DNA of 64,000 nt from Duganella sp. BuS-21 (GTDB taxonomy: Bacteria > Pseudomonadota > Gammaproteobacteria > Burkholderiales > Burkholderiaceae_D). The notes beneath the pieces were generated by a model. The model was not told the DNA's origin, did no database searches, and was given only the letters and a program-made list of their open reading frames with translations. The stretch spans positions 2,604,001 to 2,668,000 of the forward strand of contig CP097466.1 of NCBI GenBank assembly GCA_041874725.1. The letters are read 5' to 3'. This document shows positions 14,318 through 26,998 of the stretch, in pieces (position 1 is the first letter of the stretch; each line of letters opens with the position of its first letter). The position numbers and the translations under genes were made by a program.

Positions 14318-14995
14318 TTATTGCGCAAACGGGTTGACGATTGTTGTTTCTTGTAGCCCGTTCTTCGATAAATGTAGGATTTTGTCTGTCTTTTTGGCAG
14401 CAAGTTGCGAATGTGTCACCATGATGGCGGACGCGCCGGTGGCTTTTATTTCGCGCCGCAACAGGGTAAGGATGGCGTCTGCGGTATCCGGATCGAGGTT
14501 GCCGGTAGGCTCATCGGCCAGCACCAGGGCCGGACGATGGACCAGGGCACGGGCGATGGCCACCCGTTGCATTTGCCCGCCAGAAATTTGATGAGGGAAA
14601 TCGTGCTCGCGGCCGCCGAGGCCGACTTCTGCCAGCATCTCGGCCGCGCGTGTCGTGGACAAACCGTTCAAGAGCAGGGGGAGGGCGACGTTCTGCAGCA
14701 AGGTCAGATGCGGCAGCACGTGGAAGGCCTGGAAGATGAATCCCATGCGCGCGCGCCGCAGTTTGGTGGCGGCGTCGTCGTCCAGGCCCGACATGGCGAC
14801 GCCGTCGACGATGATGGGCGATTGCGCTGCGGGGTCTGGCGTATCCAGGCCGGCGATGAGGTTCAGCAGCGTGGACTTGCCGACGCCAGAGTCGCCCATG
14901 ATGGCGACGAATTCGCCGGCCTTGAAGGTCCACGACAGCCGGTCCAGCACCGGCCGGCCGCCATAGGATTTGGAGAGGTCGCGGAGTTCGAGCAT
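14318..14995 (-). CDS. ABC transporter ATPase, LolD/MacB-like, last gene of the putative selenium importer operon
   Basis: The 225-residue product starts at 14995; its ATG overlaps the upstream permease stop by one base (TAATG). It has Walker [10 protein letters not shown], signature ISGGQMQR, Walker [13 protein letters not shown] and the H-loop MVTHS. The DEPTGNLD form and overall size resemble LolD/MacB/FtsE-type ATPases rather than PhnC. It is the second ATPase of the operon (the other is at 16643-17461), so the two may pair as a heterodimer, one per permease. Alternatively one is redundant. Transport function is inferred from the operon. Confidence 0.85.
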
Positions 14996-15801
14996 TATCG
15001 TGTGAGCGCGCGGCGCATGGCGAAGCTGATGCCATCGACCAGCGCCACCAGCAGCAGCATGGCGAGGATGACGGTGGCGGCCAGTGGCATCTGGAATAAG
15101 GACAGGTGGTACTTGAGCATTTGGCCCAATCCACCGGCGCCGACCACGCCGAGGATGGCGGCGGCGCGGATATTGTTCTCCCAGCGGTACAGTGTGTACG
15201 AAATCATCTGCGGCAGCGTTTGCGGCAGTGTGGCGTAGAAGAAGGCGCTGACCGCGTCGGCGCCGTTGGTGCGCAGGCTTTGCTCCGGCAGCGGCGCAGC
15301 GTTTTCCAGCGAGTCGGCGAACAGGCGGCCCAGTACACCGGCAGTGTGCGCGGCCAGCGCCAGCGTGCCGCCGAGCGGCCCGAGGCCGGCGGCGATCAGC
15401 ATGATGGAAGCCCACACCAGTTCCGGGATCGAACGCAGCACATTGAGCACGGCGCGCATGGCGGCGCGCGGCGCGGCACCGAAGCGGCCGGAGGCTGGCA
15501 GCGAAAACGCCAGGCCGAAGATCACGGCCAGCAGCGTGCCGAGGCCGGACATGGCCAGCGTTTCAAGCGCAGCCCAGAAGGTCTTGGTGAGGAAGGGCAG
15601 GCCGGTCTCCGGCGGCGCAAAACCTGCCAGCAGTTCCAGCGCGCTGTTGACCGCTTCCATGGTGAAGAAGTCGCGCCACTTGAGCGGCAGCGTAGCGAAG
15701 CTGGCGACGATCAGCAGCACCACCAGCAGCATCAGGACGCGCAAGGTCCAGTCGCGGGCCGGCGGCTTGGGCATGTGGGCGGCGGCTAGGTTCGATTTCA
15801 T
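14995..15801 (-). CDS. Phosphonate-type (PhnE-like) ABC permease, second permease of the putative selenium importer
   Basis: A 268-residue inner-membrane protein with about six hydrophobic segments. It contains the binding-protein-dependent permease EAA-type loop: FFYATLPQTLPQMISYTLYRWENNIRAAAILG, then GAGGLGQ. The closest named family is PhnE. It overlaps the upstream permease by four bases (ATGA) and the downstream ATPase by one base, so the operon is tightly coupled. A phosphonate role cannot be excluded, but no C-P lyase or phosphonatase gene is in the window. Confidence 0.85.
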   Translation of the reverse strand: MKSNLAAAHMPKPPARDWTLRVLMLLVVLLIVASFATLPLKWRDFFTMEAVNSALELLAGFAPPETGLPFLTKTFWAALETLAMSGLGTLLAVIFGLAFSLPASGRFGAAPRAAMRAVLNVLRSIPELVWASIMLIAAGLGPLGGTLALAAHTAGVLGRLFADSLENAAPLPEQSLRTNGADAVSAFFYATLPQTLPQMISYTLYRWENNIRAAAILGVVGAGGLGQMLKYHLSLFQMPLAATVILAMLLLVALVDGISFAMRRALTR

Positions 15802-16646
15802 CCGAGGCGCCTCCGCAGCACTTTAGAGAACTGGTCGGCCAAGGCCACCAGCAGTACGAACACCAGCAGCATGGAAGCCACTTCGGCGCCGGCCAGCATC
15901 TTCATCGATTCGTCCATGCGCTGACCGAGGCCGCCGGCGCCGACGAAGCCCATCACCACCGAGCCGCGTATCGCGCATTCCCAGCGGTAGACGGTGTAGG
16001 ACATCAGTTCCGCAGCCGATTCCGGCAGCACGCCGTACAGCAGCGCGGATAAACGCCCGCTGCCGTTGGTCAGCAGCGTGTCGCTGGCGTGGGCGTCGGA
16101 CGATTCGAGGATTTCGGCGTAGACCTTGCCCAGCATGCCGCAGTAGGTGAGGGCGATGGCCAGCACGCCGGCCGTGGGACCAAGGCCGATGATGCGCACG
16201 AACAGCAGCGCCCACACCAGTTCCGGCACCGAGCGCAGAATCACCAGCAGCCAGCGCACGCCTTGGCGCACGGCGTGCGCGGCCAGGCGCATGCGGCCCG
16301 TGCCCAGCGCGGAAATCGACAGTTGTTCGTTGATGATCAGCGTGGCGGGGATGGCGCCCAGCAGTGCCAGCGCCAGGCCGGCGGTGGCGATGGCGATGGT
16401 GTTCCAGGTTTCGCGCAGCAGCATCTCCAGGAATTCGGCGCTGTGGGCCGGCACCAGGAAGTCGGCCAGGAAGCGGCCGGTGGCGCGCAGGCTTTGCGCG
16501 TCGAGCAGTATCCACGGCGTGAATTCGCTGATGACCAGCGCCGGCCACAGGATGACCAGCGCAGCCACGATGGCGAGGATGCGGCCGCGCAGGGCTGGAT
16601 CGTGCCGGATATTGGTTGCGGCTGCAGGTGCGACGGCAGCCATCAC
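15798..16646 (-). CDS. Phosphonate-type (PhnE-like) ABC permease, first permease of the putative selenium importer
   Basis: A 282-residue membrane protein of the same fold as its neighbour, with the EAA-like loop LLYGVLPESAAELMSYTVYRWECAIRGS and GAGGLGQ. The two permeases are clearly paralogous, and both keep the RSVPELVWA/RSIPELVWA segment. They probably form the heterodimeric channel. The start overlaps the PhnC-like ATPase stop (ATGA). It begins with two Met codons; either may be used. Confidence 0.85.
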   Translation of the reverse strand: MMAAVAPAAATNIRHDPALRGRILAIVAALVILWPALVISEFTPWILLDAQSLRATGRFLADFLVPAHSAEFLEMLLRETWNTIAIATAGLALALLGAIPATLIINEQLSISALGTGRMRLAAHAVRQGVRWLLVILRSVPELVWALLFVRIIGLGPTAGVLAIALTYCGMLGKVYAEILESSDAHASDTLLTNGSGRLSALLYGVLPESAAELMSYTVYRWECAIRGSVVMGFVGAGGLGQRMDESMKMLAGAEVASMLLVFVLLVALADQFSKVLRRRLG

Positions 16647-17461
16647 AGGCAGGCGCCTACGCCGAGCTTGACCGCCATCAGCTCGTCGTGCGACGGCGGA
16701 CTGGCGGCCGGTTGTTCACCCTGATACAGCGCGGCGATCATCTGCGGCGTGACCTGGTCGCGCGGCAGGTCGAATTCGATGCGGCCGTCGCGCAGGGCCA
16801 CGATGCGCGGGAAGTGGCTGAGCGCCAGGTCCACCTGGTGCAGGCTGCAGATCAGGGTGGCGTTGCGGGCGCTGGCTTCTTGGCGCAGCGTGGTCAAGGT
16901 GAGTTCAGACAGCGCGGGATCGAGCGCGGACAGCGGCTCGTCGACCAGCAGCGATTTCGCCGGTGACAGCAGCAACCGTGCCAAGCCGCAGCGCTGGCGT
17001 TCGCCGCCAGACAGGCGGTCGACGCGGGAATACAGTTTGTCGCCCAGGTTGAAGCGCGACAGCGCCTGCCATGCGGCTTGCGGATCGGCGGGCTTGAACA
17101 GCGAGACCAGCGCGCGCCACACGCTCCATTGCGGCAGGCGCGCGGCCAGCACCGCCGTCACCACGCGCTGGCGCGGCGGCAGCGGCGGGGTTTGCGGCGC
17201 CAGGAATAACTGCGCGCGCAGGCGATGGCGCTCCGCTTCATCGAGCGCCCACGGGTCGACACCGAAGGCTTGGAAGCTGCCGTCGGCAGGCTTGTGCGAG
17301 AGGGAAAGGGTCGCCAGCAATGTGGTCTTGCCGGCGCCGGAGGGGCCGATCAAGGCCAGGTGCTCGCCCTGATTGACGGTCAGCTGGATCGCATGCAGTG
17401 CAGCGGTAGACGGTGCGCTCAGGTGGCGCACCGTCAGGTTTTGCAGTTGATAGTTCAACAT
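16643..17461 (-). CDS. PhnC-like ABC transporter ATPase of the putative selenium importer
   Basis: A 272-residue nucleotide-binding subunit with Walker A GPSGAGKTT, signature LSGGERQR, Walker B LLVDEPLSALDP and H-loop SLHQVDLALSHFPRIVALRDG. The family is PhnC-like (phosphonate/phosphite class). It lies 13 bases downstream of the substrate-binding protein gene and overlaps the first permease gene. It should power uptake across the inner membrane. It differs clearly from the second ATPase of the operon, which has a [12 protein letters not shown] Walker B. Confidence 0.87.
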   Translation of the reverse strand: MLNYQLQNLTVRHLSAPSTAALHAIQLTVNQGEHLALIGPSGAGKTTLLATLSLSHKPADGSFQAFGVDPWALDEAERHRLRAQLFLAPQTPPLPPRQRVVTAVLAARLPQWSVWRALVSLFKPADPQAAWQALSRFNLGDKLYSRVDRLSGGERQRCGLARLLLSPAKSLLVDEPLSALDPALSELTLTTLRQEASARNATLICSLHQVDLALSHFPRIVALRDGRIEFDLPRDQVTPQMIAALYQGEQPAASPPSHDELMAVKLGVGACL

Positions 17462-17474
17462 TGAGAACGTCGAA

Positions 17475-18335
17475 TTACTTCAGCAGGCCGGCGTTCTTGG
17501 CTGCGGCTTCGATGTTCTTGTAGTTCTCGACTTTGGTCGGAATGAACTTGATGGTGCGCTGCAGGTCCATAATGACTTTGTCTTCAGGCTTGGACGGGTC
17601 CAGGGCCAGGAAGGCGTCGCTCAGCTTTTTCTTTAGGTCGGCGTTCATGTCGGTGCGCACCGACCAGTTGTAGTCGTAGTAGCCTGGCGTGGTGTAGAAC
17701 ACGCGCACCACGGCTGGATCGACCTTTTTCGCTTCCAGCAGTTTTTCCCATACCGAGATATTCAGCGCGCCGGCATCGACCTTGCCGCCTGCGACGGCGG
17801 CCACGGTGGCGTCGTGCGCGCCGGAGAAGGCGATGCGTTTCAGGTCGGTGTCCGGATTGATCTTCGCTTGCAGCAGGTAGAAGCGCGGCATCAGGTGGCC
17901 CGAGGTCGAGGACTCGGAGCCGAAGCTCAGGGTCTTGCCCTTCAGGTCATTCAGGCTGTTGATGCTCTTGTTGGTGGTGACGAACACGGAGCGGAATTTT
18001 TCATCTTCGACGCGCTGCACCAGCGGCGTGATGGCGCCCTTGCTGCGATCGTTGGCTTGCACGAAGGTGAAGCCGCCGAACCAGACCATGTCGACTTTTT
18101 TATTGATCAGGGCTTCGACCGAGGCGGCGTAGTCGGTCACCGGCGTAAACTCGACCTTCATGCCGATCTTCTTCTCCAGATACTCGCCCAGCGGTTTGAA
18201 CTTGCGCTGCAGTTCGGTCGGCGCTTCGTCCGGGATGGCCGATACGCGGAACACGTTGTCGGCGGACTGCGCGTGCGACCAGGAGGCTGCCAGCATCAGG
18301 CCGGCGGCCAGGACGGATTTGAAGGAGATTTTCAT
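17475..18335 (-). CDS. PhnD-like periplasmic binding protein of a putative selenate/selenium ABC importer
   Basis: The 286-residue product starts at 18335 after AAGGG and has a Sec signal peptide cut after SWSHA. The mature part reads FRVSAIPDEAPTEL, LGEYLEKKIGMKVEF, then VDMVWFGGFTFVQA. This is a PhnD-type fold, and it matches what I recall of the family labelled in databases as putative selenate ABC transporter substrate-binding protein. It heads the five-gene operon and is divergent from egtD across 130 bp. The selenium assignment rests on memory of that family plus proximity to egtDB and senABC; phosphonate or another oxyanion is the alternative. Confidence 0.75.
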   Translation of the reverse strand: MKISFKSVLAAGLMLAASWSHAQSADNVFRVSAIPDEAPTELQRKFKPLGEYLEKKIGMKVEFTPVTDYAASVEALINKKVDMVWFGGFTFVQANDRSKGAITPLVQRVEDEKFRSVFVTTNKSINSLNDLKGKTLSFGSESSTSGHLMPRFYLLQAKINPDTDLKRIAFSGAHDATVAAVAGGKVDAGALNISVWEKLLEAKKVDPAVVRVFYTTPGYYDYNWSVRTDMNADLKKKLSDAFLALDPSKPEDKVIMDLQRTIKFIPTKVENYKNIEAAAKNAGLLK

Positions 18336-18465
18336 GGTATTTACCCTTGAGTGTGAAAAGACGCACGGAAGATTTACTGACGCGCTGCAAAATGGATATT
18401 CAGCTATCATAGCAAAAATCACTATCCCGTCGCGGGATGATCACCAAGAAAAAGCGGAGCAGCGT

Positions 18466-19401
18466 ATGCAATTGTCCCACGGTAGTCCGGAGGTCATCGC
18501 CGAAATCAGCGCAGGCCTGATGGCTGCCGCCGCATATACTTCGCCCAAATATCTCTACGACGGCCTCGGCTCCAAGCTGTTCGAGGCCATTTGCGAGCTG
18601 CCCGAATACTACCCGACCCGCACCGAAGCGGCCATCTTCGCCTGCCATGGCGCCGAAATGGCGCGCGCGGTGGGCGACGGCGCCACGCTGATCGATCTGG
18701 GTGCGGGCAATTGCGCCAAGGCGGCGTCGCTGTTCCCGCTGTTGCAGCCGGCGCAGTACGTGCCGGTCGATATTTCGCGCGACTTCCTGGCCGGCGCGGT
18801 GGCGCAGCTGCAGCAGCGCTTCCCGCACATCGAAATGACGGCCCTCGGCCTGGACTTTTCCAGCGGCTTTGCATTGCCGGACAGCGTGCGCGCCGGTCGC
18901 CGCGTGTTCTTCTATCCCGGCTCTTCGATCGGCAATTTCTCGCCCGACCACGCGATCACCTTCCTGCGCGGCCTGCGCCTCAATGCGGGCGCCGATGGCG
19001 GCCTGCTGATCGGTGTGGACCTGATCAAGGACCACACGGTGCTGGACGCGGCCTACGACGATGCGCTGGGCGTGACCGGCGCCTTCAACCTGAACATGCT
19101 GCGCCACCTGAATCACCTGATCGGATCGGATTTCGATGTCGAGCAGTGGAAGCACATCGCCTTCTTCAATCCCGAATTCAGCCGCATCGAGATGCACCTG
19201 GAAGCACGTTGCGGGTTGACGGTGCGCTGGCCCGGCGGCGAGCGCAGTTTCGCGCGCGGCGAGCGCATACATACGGAAGACAGCTACAAGTACACGCGCC
19301 AATCCTTCGTCAACCTGCTGGAGCGCGCCGGCTTCGCCACCACGCGCGTGTGGACCGATGAAGAGCAGTGGTTCGCCGTTATACACGCCAGGGTGATTTG
19401 A
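18466..19401 (+). CDS. egtD: L-histidine N-alpha-methyltransferase EgtD
   Basis: EgtD trimethylates histidine to hercynine with SAM, the first step of both ergothioneine and selenoneine synthesis. The 311-residue product starts at 18466 after a GGAG site; a longer in-frame start upstream has no ribosome site. It shows YDGLGSKLFEAICELPEYYPTR near the N-terminus, the SAM-binding LIDLGAGNCAKA, FFYPGSSIGNFSP, and the C-terminal HTEDSYKYT motif. Size and motifs are normal for the family. Its stop is two bases before the egtB ATG. It is divergent from the putative selenium importer. Confidence 0.95.
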   Translation: MQLSHGSPEVIAEISAGLMAAAAYTSPKYLYDGLGSKLFEAICELPEYYPTRTEAAIFACHGAEMARAVGDGATLIDLGAGNCAKAASLFPLLQPAQYVPVDISRDFLAGAVAQLQQRFPHIEMTALGLDFSSGFALPDSVRAGRRVFFYPGSSIGNFSPDHAITFLRGLRLNAGADGGLLIGVDLIKDHTVLDAAYDDALGVTGAFNLNMLRHLNHLIGSDFDVEQWKHIAFFNPEFSRIEMHLEARCGLTVRWPGGERSFARGERIHTEDSYKYTRQSFVNLLERAGFATTRVWTDEEQWFAVIHARVI

Positions 19402-19403
19402 GG

Positions 19404-20591
<1,188 letters not shown>

Positions 20592-20593
20592 TT

Positions 20594-21469
20594 TCATGCG
20601 TGCGCGCCGCTGAGCCGGAACTGACTCACCACCTGATTTAATTCCCCCGCCTGATCCTGCATGGCTGCCGCCGCAGCGGCGGCTTGCTCCACCAGCGCAG
20701 CGTTCTGCTGCGTTACCTGGTCCATCTGGCTGATGGCGATATTGATTTGCTCGATGCCGCTGGTCTGTTCGTGATTGGCCAGCGTGATTGCGCCGACGAT
20801 GGCGGTGACGCGGCGCACGCTCTCCTGCACTTCGTCCATGGTGCGGCCGGCCGCACTGACCAGCTGTGCGCCGGCCACCACCTTGCCCACCGAATCATCG
20901 ATGAGCGCCTTGATCTCTTTGGCCGCGCTGGCCGAGCGCTGCGCCACCACCGCGAAACCGCGCCCCTGTTCACCGGCGCGCGCCGCTTCTACCGCCGCGT
21001 TGAGCGCCAGGATATTGGTCTGGAATGCGATGCCGTCGATGATGTCGACGATCTTGCGCGAGGAGTCGTTGATGGCGTTCATGGTATCGACCACCTGCGC
21101 CACCACCGCGCCGCCGCGCTGCGCTACTTCGGTGGCCGACTGCGCCAGCGCGTTGGCCTCATGCGCGTTGGCGGCGTTCTGTTTGACGGTGCTGGTGAGT
21201 TCTTCCATCTCGGCGCGGATCTGCTCCGTGCGCGCGGGCAGGTCGGTGGTGAATAGTTCGAGCGTGAGCGCGGAATTGGCGCGGGTGGTCGTGCTGACGG
21301 TGGCAGCCGCTTCGGCCTTGACCCAGTCGTCCTCGATGATGGTGCGATTGAGGGAACCGATGCTGCCGAGCCGCTGCAGGCCGGTGGCGATCAGCACCGC
21401 CATCAGCAGCAGCACGGCGCCGAAGGCGATACCCAGGCGGGCGCCTATCTTGAGATTGGAGAGCATCAT
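20594..21469 (-). pseudogene. Methyl-accepting chemotaxis protein with two internal in-frame deletions
   Basis: The frame is intact (291 residues from ATG 21469, after a GGAG site) but the protein is far shorter than a normal receptor of ~540. It has TM1 and the beginning of a four-helix-bundle sensor, then jumps from ELFTTDLP straight into the signalling helix ([24 protein letters not shown]). The second membrane segment and HAMP domain are therefore missing. A second gap occurs near the hairpin tip: [16 protein letters not shown] lacks the usual ~7 residues (of the EVRNLA type) between GFAVVA and QRS. It is unlikely to signal normally. It ends two bases after egtB, convergently. Confidence 0.7.
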
Positions 21470-21571
21470 GAACCGACTCCTCGTCACAAAAAACGAGAAA
21501 CCAGTATAACTTGAATGCTGCAGTGCGGAAAAAAGTCTTGCGCCAGGTGTTGCGCGGACGGCACGTATTAG

Positions 21572-21660
21572 TTCGGGGTCAGTTCCGACATTCGGACACG
21601 AGTTCGCCGTAGCGTGCGCTACGGCAGGGCTCGTGTCCGAATGTCGGAACTGACCCCGAA
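21572..21660. repeat. REP-like inverted repeat with 31-bp perfect arms, at the leuA 3' end
   Basis: The left arm 21572-21602 is the exact reverse complement of the right arm 21630-21660. The arms begin TTCGGGGTCAGTTCCGACAT and continue CGGACACGAG. The 27-base centre contains a second short inverted repeat (GCCGTAGC/GCTACGGC). The whole can fold into one long hairpin. It begins three bases after the leuA stop and may act as its terminator. The form suggests a REP/REPIN-type extragenic element; that needs other copies in the genome. Confidence 0.8.
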
Positions 21661-21663
21661 TGC

Positions 21664-23352
21664 TTAGGCTGCCACTTTGCCTTCGGCCGCTTCAACGCGC
21701 ACCAGCTGGCGGTTGACCGCGCTGAGCACCGCCTTGAACGAGGCGGTCAGGATGTTGCTGTCGATGGCCGCGCCGAACAGGGTCGGGCCGTTGGCCAGGC
21801 GCAGTTCGACATAGCAGGCCGCCTTGGCGTTGGCGCCCGAGCCGATCGAGTGCTCGTGGTAGTCCATCAGCTTGATATCCAGGCCCAGCGCATCGACAAA
21901 GGCGTCGATCGGGCCGTTGCCGCCGCCTTGCAGCGCCAGTGACGCACCGCGATGGATCATGGCGATGTCGATCTGCACCGGCTCGTCGCTGCTGGTGTCT
22001 TCCACCATTTTGTGCGACTGGTAGGCGTATGGAGAGCTCTGCTCGAAGTATTCCTTGTTGAAGATATCGTAGATGCCCTCGGAGGTGATTTCAAGGCCGG
22101 TCTGGTCGGCCACCGCCTGCACCGCGCGGCTGAATTCAATCTGCAGGCGGCGCGGCAGCACCAGGCCGAAGTCCTGCTCCAGCAAGTAGGCCATGCCGCC
22201 TTTGCCCGACTGGCTGTTGACGCGGATGACGGCGTCGTAGCTGCGGCCCAGGTCTTGCGGGTCGATCGGCAAATACGGGATCTCCCAGAGCGCGCCTTCG
22301 ACCTGCTTGGCGAAGCCTTTCTTGATCGCGTCCTGGTGCGAGCCGGAGAAGGCGGTGAATACCAGGTCGCCCACGTACGGGTGGCGCGGGTGTACCGGCA
22401 ATTGGTTGCATTCCTCGACCACCTTGCGCACTTCATCGATGTCGGAGAAGTCCAGGCCAGGATGCACGCCCTGGGTGTAGAGGTTGAGCGCCAGCGTCAC
22501 CAGGTCGACGTTGCCGGTGCGTTCGCCGTTGCCGAACAAGCAGCCTTCAACGCGGTCGGCGCCGGCCATCACGGCCAGTTCGGCCGAGGCCACGGCGGTG
22601 CCGCGGTCGTTGTGCGGGTGGACCGAGATGATCAGCGAATCACGGCGCGTCAGTTTGCGCGACATCCATTCGATCTGGTCGGCATAGACGTTGGGCGTGC
22701 TGCACTCCACGGTGGACGGCAGATTGATGATCAGCTTCCTGGACGGCGTCGGTTCGAAGATGGCGATGACGGCGTCGCAGATATGCTTGGAGAAGTCCAG
22801 CTCCGTGGTGGAGAACGATTCAGGCGTGTATTCATAGCCCCAGTCGGTGTCCGGATGCTGCTTGGTCAGTTCCTTCACCAGCTTGGCGCCGGTGGTGGCG
22901 ATGTTGGTGATCTCTTCGCGCGACATGCCGAAGACCACCTTGCGGAATACCGGCGCCACCGAGTTGTACAGGTGGACGATGGCGCGCTTGGCGCCGAGGC
23001 ACGATTCGACGGTGCGGCGGATCAGTTCATCGCGCGACTGGGTCAGCACGATGATGGTGACGTCGTCCGGAATGCGCTTTTCTTCCACCAGCTTGCGCAC
23101 GAAGTCGAAGTCGGTCTGCGAAGCCGAAGGGAAGCCGACTTCGATTTCCTTCAGGCCGATCTTGATCAGCAGGTCGAACATGCGCAGTTTTTTCTCGATG
23201 CTCATCGGCTCGATCAGGGCCTGGTTGCCGTCGCGCAGGTCGGTGCTCATCCAGATCGGCGGCTTGCTGATGATGGCGTTCGGCCAGGTACGGTCGGTCA
23301 ACTGGACGGCGGGGAAGGCGCGGTATTTGCTCGCTGGGTTCTGCAACATCAT
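21664..23352 (-). CDS. leuA: 2-isopropylmalate synthase LeuA
   Basis: LeuA condenses acetyl-CoA with 2-ketoisovalerate, the committed step of leucine synthesis. The 562-residue product starts at 23352, eight bases after AGGAG. It shows [13 protein letters not shown] and the metal-site HPHNDRG. The C-terminal regulatory domain includes [16 protein letters not shown] and VDS-like repeats, where leucine binds. It belongs to the longer ~560-residue class. Upstream lie two small leucine-rich reading frames, suggesting attenuation. It separates the egtDB half from the senABC half of the selenium/ergothioneine region and is likely a housekeeping bystander. Confidence 0.96.
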
Positions 23353-23424
23353 GGGAATGCTCCTGGATCTAAAATGGGGTGTGCTAAGCGATGTGGCGAA
23401 AGGCTGCGGCGCGGCCACGGGATA

Positions 23425-23478
23425 CTAGGCGCGGCAACCGATCGGTAGTTTTAGCAGTAGCGACAAGGCTGGGAGCAT
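23425..23478 (-). CDS. Second leucine-rich mini-ORF in the leuA leader (17 codons)
   Basis: ATG at 23478 to TAG at 23425 encodes MLPALSLLLKLPIGCRA. Six of 17 residues are Leu, using CTC, TTG, CTG and three CTA codons. An AGGAAAG lies about ten bases upstream of the ATG. It is placed 72 bases before the leuA start, where a regulatory uORF would act. A hairpin with GGTTGC/GCAGCC ends follows its 3' end but has only a short T stretch. Its role in translation-coupled or attenuation control is inference. Confidence 0.5.
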   Translation of the reverse strand: MLPALSLLLKLPIGCRA

Positions 23479-23507
23479 CGGTACAACTTTCCTGGATTTT
23501 TGAGGCG

Positions 23508-23527
23508 GTGCGGCTTGTGGCCGGCAC
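23508..23527 (-). promoter_or_regulatory. Possible leader hairpin between the two leucine mini-ORFs
   Basis: On the minus strand GTGC-C-GGC and GCC-GCAC pair around the loop CACAA, giving a seven-pair stem with one bulged base. No U run follows, so it is not a classic terminator. It may be one of alternative leader structures controlled by ribosome stalling. Confidence 0.3.
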
Positions 23528-23548
23528 GGGGTACAACAGGGACGCGGA

Positions 23549-23635
23549 TTAAACGCGTGCTAGTAGACGCGCTGCTAGCGATAGGGCGCTGGCAGGCGAT
23601 AGCAGGAAAGCGGATAGGTGCAGATGCGAGGTCAT
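23549..23635 (-). CDS. leuL: leuA leader peptide, leucine/CUA-rich (28 codons)
   Basis: ATG at 23635 to TAA at 23549 encodes 28 residues: MTSHLHLSAFLLSP then ASALSLAARLLARV. Eight are Leu, and six of these use CTA, a codon almost absent from the large high-GC genes nearby. A CTA CTA pair lies just before the stop. This is the hallmark of a leucine-sensing attenuator. No clear Shine-Dalgarno is present; the predicted promoter would start the RNA at or near this ATG, so it may be leaderless. The family of leucine leaders in proteobacteria is known; this example is read directly from the sequence. Confidence 0.65.
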   Translation of the reverse strand: MTSHLHLSAFLLSPASALSLAARLLARV

Positions 23636-23641
23636 GCCTAG

Positions 23642-23671
23642 AATGTAAGCGATCCCCGCCGCAGTCGTCAA
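23642..23671 (-). promoter_or_regulatory. Predicted promoter of the leuA leader
   Basis: On the minus strand TTGACG (23671-23666) and TACATT (23647-23642) are separated by 18 bases; TTACAT gives a 17-base spacer. The expected transcription start falls about at the ATG of the 28-codon leader peptide (23635). Confidence 0.5.
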
Positions 23672-23704
23672 GCGAAATTGGCGGGTTGTCGTTTTGATAC
23701 CGAC

Positions 23705-24750
23705 TCAGTCGACGGTGACACGCGGCGCGCCGGCGGCCATGCGGCCGATGACGGCGGCTTCGCCGAAGCCTTCGCGGTGGAACAGGGCCAGCACTTCGTC
23801 CACGCTGGCGGCGTCGCAGGAGACCAGCAGGCCGCCCGAGGTTTGCGGGTCGGTCAGCAGCGAGTGCTGGGCCGGCGTGATGGTCTCGGCCAGCTGCACG
23901 TCCTTGCCGTAGGCGTCCCAGTTGCGGCCCGAGGCGCCGGTGAAGTAGCCATCGTGCGCCAGTTGCTCGACGCCCGGCAGCAGCGGGATCTGTTGCATGT
24001 GCAGCTGCGCTTCCAGCTTGGCGCCGCGCGCCAGTTCCAGCAGGTGGCCCAGCAGACCGAAGCCGGTGACGTCGGTCAGCGCGTGCACGCCGGCCAGTTC
24101 GGACAGCGCCTTGCCCGGTTTATTCAATTTGGTGGTGTTGGCGATCATGGCCTTGTAGCCTTCATCATCGAGCGCGCCTTTTTCAGCGCGGCCGACAGCA
24201 CGCCCACGCCCAGCGGTTTGCCCAGCACCAGCACGTCGCCGGCCTTGGCGTCGGCGTTGCGCTTGATCCTGGATGGGTGGATCAGGCCGAGGACCACCAG
24301 GCCGTAGATCGGCTCCACCGAATCGATGGTGTGGCCGCCGGCGATGGGAATGCCCGCTTCGGCGCAGATCGATTCGCCGCCCTTGATGATCTGGCCGATG
24401 GTTTCGATCGGCAGTTTGTTGATCGGCATGCCCACCAGGGCCAGCGCCATGATCGGCGTGCCGCCCATGGCGTAGACGTCGGAGATGGCGTTGGTGGCGG
24501 CAATGCGGCCAAAGTCGTAGGGATCGTCGACGATCGGCATGAAGAAGTCGGTGGTGGCGATCAGCGCCTGTTCGTCATTGAGCTTGTAGACGGCGGCATC
24601 GTCGGCCGTCTCAATACCGACCAGCAGTTCCTTCGGCACCGGGAAGCCGCTGGAGTTCTTCAGGATCTCGGACAGCACGCCGGGCGCGATTTTGCAGCCG
24701 CAGCCGCCGCCGTGGGAGAAGGAGGTCAATTTGATTGCTTCGTTGCTCAT
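23705..24750 (-). pseudogene. senC: SenC/SelD selenophosphate synthetase, with a one-base frameshift
   Basis: SelD-type enzymes make selenophosphate from selenide and ATP. From ATG 24750, nine bases after AAGG, the frame has catalytic Cys17 and Lys20 in SHGGGCGCK, the same positions as E. coli SelD, then the glycine-rich ATP region. At CTG AAA AAG the frame goes off ([11 protein letters not shown], stop). The rest continues in the -1 frame as [11 protein letters not shown] and ends LLTDPQTSGGLLVS. One G missing beside 24177-24183 explains it. The frame-corrected length is 348 residues, normal for the family. With senB 15 bases upstream and senA divergent, it should serve selenoneine synthesis. 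Sequencing error, pseudogene, or -1 recoding are the options. Confidence 0.88.
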
Positions 24751-24765
24751 GGTTTGCATCCTTGG

Positions 24766-25761
24766 TTAAGTCTTATGCAGCAGATTATCCACCAACTCCA
24801 GTAAAGCCGCTTGCTCGGCGGCCGGTGCGAACAGCGGGGCGCGGGCGTCGCACTGTGCCCGCAGCTGTCGATAAAAGTCGGTATCGGCGATGACGCGGTC
24901 GATCAGGCACGCCAGTGCGGCGGCGTCGCCGGGCGGGAAGTAGCCGGCGTAGTGCTGGCCCAACATGCCGCGATTGCCGCTGATGTCGCTGGCCAGCACC
25001 GGCACGCCGGCGCAGACGGCTTCGATGATGACGTTGGCGCCGCCTTCCATGTGGGAGGTGAGGGCCATGGCGCGACAGCGCTTGAGGCGCTGACGCGTGG
25101 CGGCGTGCGCCATGGGGCCGAGCCATTGGTAGCGCGGGCGCTGCGCGGCGGTGGCTTGCGCGGCCAGCGCCAGTGCCGGCTCCAGTGCGCCGCCGATGTG
25201 GATCAGCCGCGCCGACGGCGCCGTCACCAGCGCCGCCGCCTGCATGAAGGTGAGCGGGTCTTTTTCCTGACGCAGGTGGCCGATCATGGCGATGTCGGCG
25301 TGGCGCTGCGCGCCGGTCGCCGGGCGTAGTGTGGCTGCGGACTGGTAGATGACATGCGCTTTGCCGCGCAGCGGTGCCGGCAGCGCTTGCAGGCCGGCGT
25401 CTTGCAGCACCACCAGCGCGCTGGCCTGCCGTAGCGAGCGTTGGGCGTCGGCGTCGGTGTCGATGTCGCGATACAGGTCGGTGCCGGTCAGCAGCAGGAT
25501 GGAAGGGCGGTCGGGATGGCTGCGGGTCCACGCGTCCAGCGACGGCGCCGAGCGGCGCGCGTGCAGGGCGATCAGCAGGTCCGGCGGCGTGGGCAGGACC
25601 GATGCGCGCTGCGCTTCAGCGTCGGCCTCGGGCCACTGCTGGGTGATGGTCACGCGGTAGCGCGTGCGCAGGAATCGCGCCCAGCGGCTGGCGCTTTGCC
25701 AGTTGCCGTTGTTGGCCCGGGCCGACGCGGGACTGACGATCCAGATATGTGCTTTGCTCAC
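24766..25761 (-). CDS. senB: SenB selenosugar synthase (glycosyltransferase-like)
   Basis: SenB converts selenophosphate and a UDP-sugar into a selenosugar, the selenium donor for selenoneine. The 331-residue product starts with GTG at 25761. It is a GT-B glycosyltransferase: the N-terminal half begins [22 protein letters not shown]. The C-terminal half has the nucleotide-sugar motif [33 protein letters not shown]. The TGTDLYRDI motif lies between. Position supports the assignment: senC directly downstream, and senA divergent 34 bases away. No good ribosome site precedes the GTG. The general family is a TIGR-type putative glycosyltransferase; the SenB name follows the published pathway from memory. 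Confidence 0.85.
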
Positions 25762-25795
25762 TGGTGTTTTGCTTGAAAGTGGTTACAATCGGCGC
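25762..25795. promoter_or_regulatory. Divergent senB/senA promoter region (34 bp)
   Basis: Only 34 bases separate the two start codons. TACAAT (25784-25789) on the plus strand is a good -10 for senA, seven bases from the ATG. The -35 is poor, which may mean activator dependence. The senB promoter must overlap senA coding sequence or this gap. Confidence 0.45.
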
Positions 25796-26998
25796 ATGAC
25801 TTCCAGCTCTACTTCATTCAGGAACGCCACCTCGCAACAGTTGGCCCAGGCCCTGCAGCACGCGAGGGATTATACGCTGTCGCTGTTCGATTGCTTTGCC
25901 GCCGCCGGCATGGATGCGCCCGCGCGCGTGCCGCAGCTGCGCATCATCAACCCGCCGCTGTGGGAACTCGGGCACACGGCCTGGTTTGCCGAATGGTTCA
26001 TCCTGCGCGAGGCCAGCTCCAGCCACCCGGCCGACGCCAACGGCAACTGCCTGCTGACCAAGGGCGACGACTGGTTCGACTCCGCGCGCGTGCCGCACCG
26101 CAGCCGCTGGTCGCTGGACCTGCCCACCACCGGCGGCGTCAAGACCTACTGCCACGAAGTGCTGGACCGCGTGCTCGATAAACTGTCGCGCGAGCCCAAC
26201 ACCGATGAGGCGCTGTATCCCTATCGCCTGGCGCTGGCGCACGAGGACATGCACGGCGAAGCCTTCCTCTACACCTTGCAGACGTTGGGCCTGGCCGCGC
26301 CAACGCCGGCCAACGGCGAGCTGCTGACGATGTTCGCACCGTCCGAGATCGGCTTCCCCGGCGGCACGCTGCAACTGGGCAGCAAGGCCGGCGCCGGCTT
26401 CGTCTTCGACAACGAGCGCGAAGCGCACAGCTTCCATGTGGCGCCGTTTCGCATGGATAGCACCTTGGTGAGCAACGCCCAGTATGCAGATTTCGTCACC
26501 GATGGCGGCTATGACAACCGCCAGTTCTGGAGCCAGGCCGGCGCCGACTGGCTGATGCGGCAGGAGCGCTCCGCGCCGCGCTACTGGCAGCGCGAGGGTG
26601 CGCAATGGCGCACCATGCGCTTTGGGAAGCTGTCCACACTGGCCGGCACGGAGCCGGTACGCCACGTGAATCTATATGAAGCCCAGGCCTATTGCGCCTG
26701 GGCCGGACGCCGCCTGCCTACAGAGGCGGAGTGGGAGTACGCGGCCTTGTCCGGCCATCCGGCGTTCCGCTGGGGGCAATTGTGGGAGTGGACGGCGTCG
26801 CCGTTCGAGCCTTATCCGGAGTTCAAGGCGGACCGCTATCTTGAGTATTCCGAGCCCTGGTTCCACACGCACCAGACCTTGCGCGGCGCTTCCTTCGCCA
26901 CGCCATCGCGTTTTGGCTCGGCCAGATTCCGGAATTTCTACGCTCCGGAACGCGACGATATCTTTGCAGGTTTCCGCACCTGCTCCTGGCCCGGATAG
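25796..26998 (+). CDS. senA: SenA selenoneine synthase (EgtB-like non-haem iron enzyme)
   Basis: SenA joins hercynine and the SenB selenosugar oxidatively, giving the precursor of selenoneine. The 400-residue product starts at 25796. It has an N-terminal DinB-like domain with putative iron ligands in WELGHTAWF and [10 protein letters not shown], then an FGE-like domain with [33 protein letters not shown] and [19 protein letters not shown]. It is clearly a paralogue of egtB at 19404-20591 but distinct (HEDMHGE against HEQQHQE). TACAAT at 25784-25789 would place transcription start at the ATG, so the mRNA may be leaderless. Hercynine would come from EgtD at 18466. Confidence 0.87.

Follow-up and report, generated by a model that had tools for sequence, protein, structure and literature searches.

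The two described systems that come closest to the locus considered here are the senABC genes for selenoneine synthesis in Variovorax paradoxus (PMC9814287; PMC10891094) and phnDCE of marine picocyanobacteria, whose substrate-binding protein PhnD1 (structures 7s6g and 5lq5) has a published role in the import of phosphate or phosphite (PMC10284923; PMC5700983). The main text of either of the latter two papers does not contain the string "selen". According to a review of 2022, a high-affinity transport system for selenium has yet to be identified (PMC9312934), and among literature titles and abstract beginnings we found none assigning selenium to PhnD-type importers. An earlier genome-context hint is an ABC transporter-related ATPase near an orphan selD (PMC5029168), for which the available text names neither the binding protein nor the importer family nor the substrate. 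A selenium role has already been guessed by annotators, as can be seen from the name of the NCBIfam hypothetical equivalog TIGR04553, putative selenate ABC transporter substrate-binding protein; the name is used as an annotation in PMC13077682, and we found no tested substrate behind it. Here we analyze a stretch of 64,000 nucleotides, hereafter the window, from the 6.49-Mb single-contig genome of Duganella sp. BuS-21 (GCA_041874725.1, contig CP097466.1, positions 2,604,001 to 2,668,000), in which a five-gene ABC importer with a TIGR04553 binding protein lies beside genes for ergothioneine and selenoneine synthesis.

The results of our analysis indicate that this is probably a locus combining selenium supply with the synthesis of histidine betaines, in which a Phn-type ABC importer would take up a small selenium oxyanion, most likely selenite. 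The reading builds on gene identities, synteny, co-occurrence, pocket residues and fold, from which we infer the substrate, the direction of transport and the flux to SenB and SelU. As in V. paradoxus, the window has senA and senB with selD beside them; unlike in that system, its selD (the "senC" of the locus) is frameshifted and is the genome's sole SelD, and the locus adds egtD-egtB and the importer. Compared with phnDCE, the importer of the window has two permeases, two ATPases and egt, sel and sen genes as neighbours, whereas its binding protein belongs to the same family: PhnD1 of Synechococcus MITS9220 (7s6g) and of Prochlorococcus MIT9301 (5lq5), the closest solved relatives in both sequence and fold, score 337 and 301 bits on TIGR04553, over the cut-off of 250 that the window protein exceeds with 400.2. 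Among the PtxB/HtxB and Escherichia coli PhnD importers, PtxB (5o2j) reaches 145 bits, below the cut-off, and carries Q at the position of D203. The locus is ordinary in its enzymes and notable in its importer. New here are the dependence on SelD in two phyla, the association with three selenium traits, the separation from sensor-linked sister proteins and the placing of picocyanobacterial PhnD1 in the same family.

Carriage of the importer follows that of SelD, families being called here and throughout from the bit score against the cut-off of the curated model (NCBIfam/TIGR). Among 369 same-class genomes, counting that of the window, SelD is present in all 14 importer carriers other than the window's genome, against a background of 86/368 (6e-10 by one-sided Fisher test, p-values here and below ignoring relatedness); in the phylum of Synechococcus WH7803 it is over the cut-off in 20/20 carriers, against 32 of the 175 genomes (2e-18). 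Seven of the eight carriers in the same-order sample, 40 genomes from other families, also have it, which gives 21/22 outside the genus overall (8 same-order and 14 same-class). SenA behaves similarly: it accompanies the importer in 9/14 same-class carriers vs 13/354 genomes without the importer (Fisher 3e-9), and within SelD-positive genomes in 9/14 carriers vs 12/72 (6e-4). These 14 carriers span 12 families, and SenA was found in 22 of the other genomes of the class. Among the same-order genomes the importer is over the cut-off in 8/40 and SenA in 12/40, with both in seven (Fisher 3e-4). As a control, we took the seven genomes of the class in which the best TIGR04553 match falls slightly short of the cut-off (208 to 240 bits); SelD was found in none of them (0/7; E 1e-36). 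Because genes with an HATPase_c kinase domain adjoin six of the seven sister binding proteins (L119-L125) and one with a PAS domain the seventh, these sisters look like periplasmic sensors; they may be oxyanion sensors like AioX/ArrX. For the picocyanobacteria, 36 PhnD1 genomes were chosen from 80 loci, in records of which completeness figures are not part; a SelU match was present in 34 (32 over the cut-off) and a SelD match in 32 (29 over the cut-off), which suggests that most of these cells put selenium into their tRNA.

The importer is also physically linked with three selenium traits, namely the sen genes, selU and selenocysteine (selA-selB with a TGA-containing formate dehydrogenase). 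In stretches of 12-20 kb, a match to SelD, SenA, SenB or EgtD lies near the importer in 8/14 same-class carriers (G206, G225, G253, G308, G317, G346, G365 and G431), the linkage in G308 being a SelD fragment at a contig end alone. Within the order, EgtD, SenA, SenB and SelD of G062 all lie no more than 7 kb from the binding-protein gene, and the importer contig of G069 breaks off inside selD, the rest of which is on a contig with senA and senB. A Sphaerotilus plasmid carries selU-ATPase-permease-binding protein-selD as co-directional neighbours, none of them overlapping or separated by more than 14 nt (binding protein 306 bits). The importer of two Paracoccus plasmids, which are related to each other (365 bits in L344), adjoins a run made up of selB, selA, fdhE and formate dehydrogenase genes. 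Codon 200 of fdnG in this run is TGA (ARV-TGA-HGPTV), the selenocysteine site of such formate dehydrogenases. Finally, a selU match lies behind phnDCE in 6/80 picocyanobacterial loci (L221, L222, L225, L229, L230 and L233). Of seven proteins from plasmid and picocyanobacterial loci scored against the family models, one, translated in a wrong frame near selU of L229, matched no family. The initial annotation had named importer homologues tied to phosphonate genes and never to sen or egt genes as the pattern that would speak against it; homologues linked to sen and egt genes are what we found. Its proposal that the importer supplies selenium has gained from the co-occurrence with SelD and from the linkage outside the genus, the transport step itself still being read from context. 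(Of note, senA of L113, in G061 C19, adjoins a second Phn-like importer of a different kind, whose two binding-protein matches, at 87 and 92 bits, are far below the TIGR04553 cut-off).

Within the genus, represented by 60 genomes including that of the window, the order importer / egtD-egtB / leuA / selD / (senB) / senA is repeated. In 59/60 genomes a single contig carries both the binding-protein match and the egtB match, with 1.1 to 1.5 kb between them, those of G040 being on different contigs, and the binding protein shares a contig with selD in 53/60, at 5.6 to 21.8 kb from start to start (median 8.8 kb). SenA is present in 55/60 (broken into two matches in G020) and senB at the locus in 36; neither is found in five genomes (G016, G022, G041, G047 and G050), where senA is missing from the whole genome and senB from the locus and the importer, egtD-egtB and selD are still kept together, the contig of G022 stopping just behind the binding protein. 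(SenB was searched genome-wide in 36 of the 60 genomes and judged in the others by tblastn of the locus). Because these five members retain it, importer-egtD-egtB-selD is the conserved core, and the sen genes are an addition. The linkage of importer and senABC that was to be looked for in related bacteria recurs throughout the genus and in some genomes outside it. The idea of a single antioxidant module is too narrow in the light of the five members without sen genes and of the importers that pair elsewhere with selU or selA-selB. A part for the importer in selenoneine synthesis only was rejected on the same five senA-less genomes.

The binding protein of the window has the Phn-type fold and an oxyanion pocket formed by Y44, S124, T125, S126, H156 and Y204, and shares all seven direct ligand-contact residues of PhnD1. 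A usable binding protein was available in 165 of 187 loci (158 from the family groups and 7 sisters; 38 proteins are from the genus), and the six residues are invariant in the 158 aligned family proteins, while position 203 is D or N. N occurs there in 11/98 cyanobacterial proteins and in 3/8 same-order ones whose genomes carry SenA, and D is found in the sisters too; D203 was therefore rejected as a signature of selenium. Selenite corresponds to phosphite in having three oxygens. At neutral pH it is present mainly as HSeO3-, and HSeO3- in a PhnD1-type pocket would be compatible with a hydrogen-bond-accepting D203, which is not proof. In 7s6g, D203 is such an acceptor (PMC10284923). The pocket of the nearest solved relatives is small and buried, is closed by a tyrosine that acts as a cap, and fits small oxyanions (PMC5700983).

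Several observations weigh against selenium import. One same-order carrier, G061, has the importer and no SelD over the cut-off (its assembly is in 210 contigs, and SelU is present); 4/36 picocyanobacterial PhnD1 genomes lack a SelD match and three more have one below the cut-off, single-cell and metagenome assemblies being among them. SelD without the importer is common, in 72/86 same-class and 12/32 cyanobacterial genomes, and three genus members (G010, G024 and G054) retain only the binding protein and ATPase 1. No selenium gene was found in the examined flanks of 6/8 same-order and 6/14 same-class importers, in 74/80 picocyanobacterial loci (about 16 of the 80 have less than 4 kb behind the binding protein), or, by tblastn of the loci, in the 18/18 further cyanobacterial loci over the cut-off. 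In the class, the importers of G444, G323, G137, G261 and G371 are unlinked to selenium genes, and that of G236 is 113 kb from SenA; on a P. yeei plasmid (361 bits) no selenium gene is annotated within 8 kb of the importer, and tblastn matched only the importer itself in an Aeromonas record. The sensor-linked sisters, whose genomes are without SelD, retain the contact residues as well, so the pocket by itself does not select selenium, and its residues were rejected as proof of it since all seven sisters share them. PhnD1, moreover, binds phosphite at 0.05 to 4.3 µM and phosphate at 7 to 182 µM, phosphate was co-purified in 7s6g, and its differential scanning fluorimetry shifts are with phosphorus sources only, from a ligand list (Supplementary Table S1) that may or may not include selenite (PMC10284923).

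These binding data, obtained with PhnD1 orthologues over the TIGR04553 cut-off, are what a phosphate or phosphite transporter would show, as proposed for picocyanobacterial PhnDCE, with the nearness to selenium genes being incidental. Such a transporter would also fit the importers outside the genus, about half, that have no selenium gene nearby, and a relative just under the cut-off (221 bits; L343, Burkholderia plasmid pBVIE02) that adjoins an annotated phosphonate dehydrogenase gene, a neighbour indicating that phosphite importers are near relatives. The same study, however, terms the situation paradoxical, since phosphite is bound best, most strains are without known routes of phosphite use and two strains tried could not grow on it; growth on phosphite fails in strains without separate ptx/phnYZ, phnD1C1E1 is not induced under phosphorus starvation, and the function finally favoured by the authors is constitutive phosphate transport (PMC10284923). 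Nothing in the role of a phosphorus importer would make it track SelD in two phyla (14/14 and 20/20) or place it in selU-importer-selD and selAB-formate dehydrogenase neighbourhoods; we regard this reading as unlikely. Transport of ergothioneine, hercynine or selenoneine appears highly improbable, even if the importer diverges from egtD-egtB across the genus, with the binding protein neighbouring egtB in 59/60 genomes, the five senA-less ones included, and even if no more than about 4 kb separates EgtD from the importer in G062, G206, G253 and G365. A hercynine or ergothioneine transporter was rejected on the small, tyrosine-capped pocket of the solved relatives (PMC5700983), whose residues are conserved here, and on the absence of an egt gene beside the importer in the annotation of the Sphaerotilus and Paracoccus plasmids and, by tblastn, in the cyanobacterial loci.

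Within selenium import itself, selenate as the main substrate is what the NCBIfam name literally says, and selenate is tetrahedral like the phosphate bound by PhnD1. The D or N at position 203 would rather suit protonated HSeO3-, with three oxygens like phosphite. Of phosphite and phosphate, with three and four oxygens, respectively, PhnD1 favours the former, by a factor of 6 or more according to Table 1 of the study and by at least an order of magnitude in the words of its authors (PMC10284923). Selenite consequently seems likelier than selenate as the substrate of TIGR04553, and selenate is a possibility that we hold in limited favour.

The selD gene of the window departs from its homologues. 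Its first frame gives 204 amino acids (24759 to 24145, minus strand) and then breaks, the second half being in another frame, so that the gene yields two separate matches; a profile search of the genome identifies it as the sole SelD over the cut-off. The intact senC assumed by the initial annotation is therefore not borne out by the gene as read. A full-length SelD is present in 58/59 other genomes of the genus, the copy of G040 being split over contig ends, and the frameshift may be a sequencing error or a real loss. As read, it would block both selenium branches, selenoneine and selenouridine, in the strain. One SelU is over the cut-off in the window's genome, and SelU is present in 58/59 other genus genomes, all except the 60%-complete G056. 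Since the sole SelD occurs with SelU in the same genome, it must also serve 2-selenouridine and is no dedicated SenC.

The importer genes lie on the minus strand from 18335 down to 14318, in the order binding protein, ATPase, two permeases and second ATPase, with ends that are close or overlapping. Past them follow egtD-egtB (plus strand, divergent), a chemotaxis-receptor-like gene, leuA, selD-senB (minus strand) and senA (plus strand; table 1). Every gene named in the initial annotation is found where it had been placed, and its assignments of EgtD, EgtB, SenB and SenA, as well as the resemblance of the binding protein to the putative selenate family, are upheld by scores above the curated cut-offs. 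Permease 2 qualifies as PhnE; both ATPases and permease 1 remain below the cut-offs of their best models and are Phn- or LolD-like only. In the comparison with the PhnCDE equivalogs the binding protein likewise falls short (172 of 261 bits on PhnD TIGR03431), as do ATPase 1 on PhnC (182 of 266) and permease 1 on PhnE (179 of 216.7). With permease 2 the sole pass among the four non-binding transport proteins, the importer is thus Phn-like and, by curated models, not the PhnCDE phosphonate importer. ATPase 2 comes after permease 2 in those genus loci whose sequence extends far enough, and was not seen adjoining permease 2 in three loci of other families (L098, L100 and L103). In L260, L304 and L274 (G010, G054 and G024), all three without senB, genes like those of two-component systems replace the permeases after ATPase 1. 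The chemotaxis-receptor-like gene has 297 amino acids in the window vs 554 in L260 and 543 in L274; its middle part may be missing in frame.

Table 1. Features of the locus in the window; gene names were assigned by similarity and coordinates taken from open reading frames (ORFs).
Feature	Positions	Strand	Evidence and remarks
ABC ATPase 2 (LolD/PhnC-like)	14318..14995	-	LolD TIGR02211 193 bits, below cut-off 308; start codon inferred
Permease 2 (PhnE)	14995..15801	-	TIGR01097 231 bits, above cut-off 216.7
Permease 1 (PhnE-like)	15798..16646	-	TIGR01097 179 bits, below cut-off 216.7
ABC ATPase 1 (PhnC-like)	16643..17461	-	PhnC TIGR02315 182 bits, below cut-off 266; Pfam ABC_tran; 4-nt overlap with permease 1
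Importer substrate-binding protein (TIGR04553)	17475..18335	-	400.2 bits, cut-off 250; ORF to 18422; start codon inferred
Divergent intergenic region, binding-protein gene / egtD	18336..18465	.	Limits inferred from chosen start codons
egtD, L-histidine N-alpha-methyltransferase (hercynine synthesis)	18466..19401	+	TIGR03438 382 bits, cut-off 291; start codon inferred
egtB, ergothioneine sulfoxide synthase	19404..20591	+	TIGR03440 539 bits, cut-off 360; start codon inferred
Chemotaxis-receptor-like gene, 297 aa	20594-21487	-	Similarity
selD ("senC"), frameshifted	23705..24759	-	24145-24759 in one frame, remainder in another
senB, selenosugar synthase	24766..25761	-	TIGR04348 412 bits, cut-off 300
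senA, selenoneine synthase	25796..26998	+	NF041186 530 bits, cut-off 420; PDB 8k5i E 4.5e-97

The SenA protein of the window retains S96, N380 and the HxxxH motif (H149, H153), a metal site in EgtB and putatively here too. Its SenB has the motif EGGANV vs EGGAHV in the Variovorax protein, together with the presumably catalytic Lys in GHLR..KDP; EGGANV is found in 35/36 SenB of the genus (the 36th has EGGANA) and in 8/12 others examined. In 19/60 genus genomes, 11 of which were also searched genome-wide, senA adjoins selD with no senB at the locus (e.g. L257, L260, L267 and L302), a state that requires four changes on the SenA tree, at least three of them forced by well-supported branches. All 19 of these SenA proteins have A at position 96 and none has N380, H153 being missing in 13 and H149 in eight, whereas S96 is invariant in the 36 proteins with senB and N380 is kept in 35/36. 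Group-mean dN/dS is 0.10 to 0.21 for senB-less SenA vs 0.05 to 0.13 for SenA with senB, the groups taking in 17/19 and 16/36 of the proteins, respectively; LeuA, unreliable for some groups owing to wrong reading frames, was dropped from this comparison. Such values suggest that the senB-less SenA have been repurposed, in part without the metal, and are not in decay.

In the selenium-supply reading that we prefer, the five-gene importer would take a selenium oxyanion, most likely HSeO3-, from the periplasm by means of a pocket of the type in which PhnD1 binds phosphite. Once imported, selenite would be reduced to selenide by general thiol chemistry, and SelD would turn selenide into selenophosphate for two users: SelU, which is encoded elsewhere and would form 2-selenouridine in tRNA, and SenB, which would make the selenosugar. 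SenA would then couple the selenosugar with EgtD-made hercynine to give selenoneine, the selenoneine steps being those of the published pathway (PMC9814287), and EgtB would draw on the same hercynine for ergothioneine. With somewhat more confidence than doubt, we extend this proposal to the whole family: TIGR04553/PhnD1 may be the high-affinity importer dedicated to selenium that has been missing in bacteria, its ligand being biselenite and phosphite only an isostere, and picocyanobacterial phnD1, reported in all 97 genomes of one database, may serve the synthesis of 2-selenouridine. If this is true, selenoneine, selenouridine and selenoproteins would all receive their selenium through a single importer family, which marine picocyanobacteria would carry under a phosphorus name.

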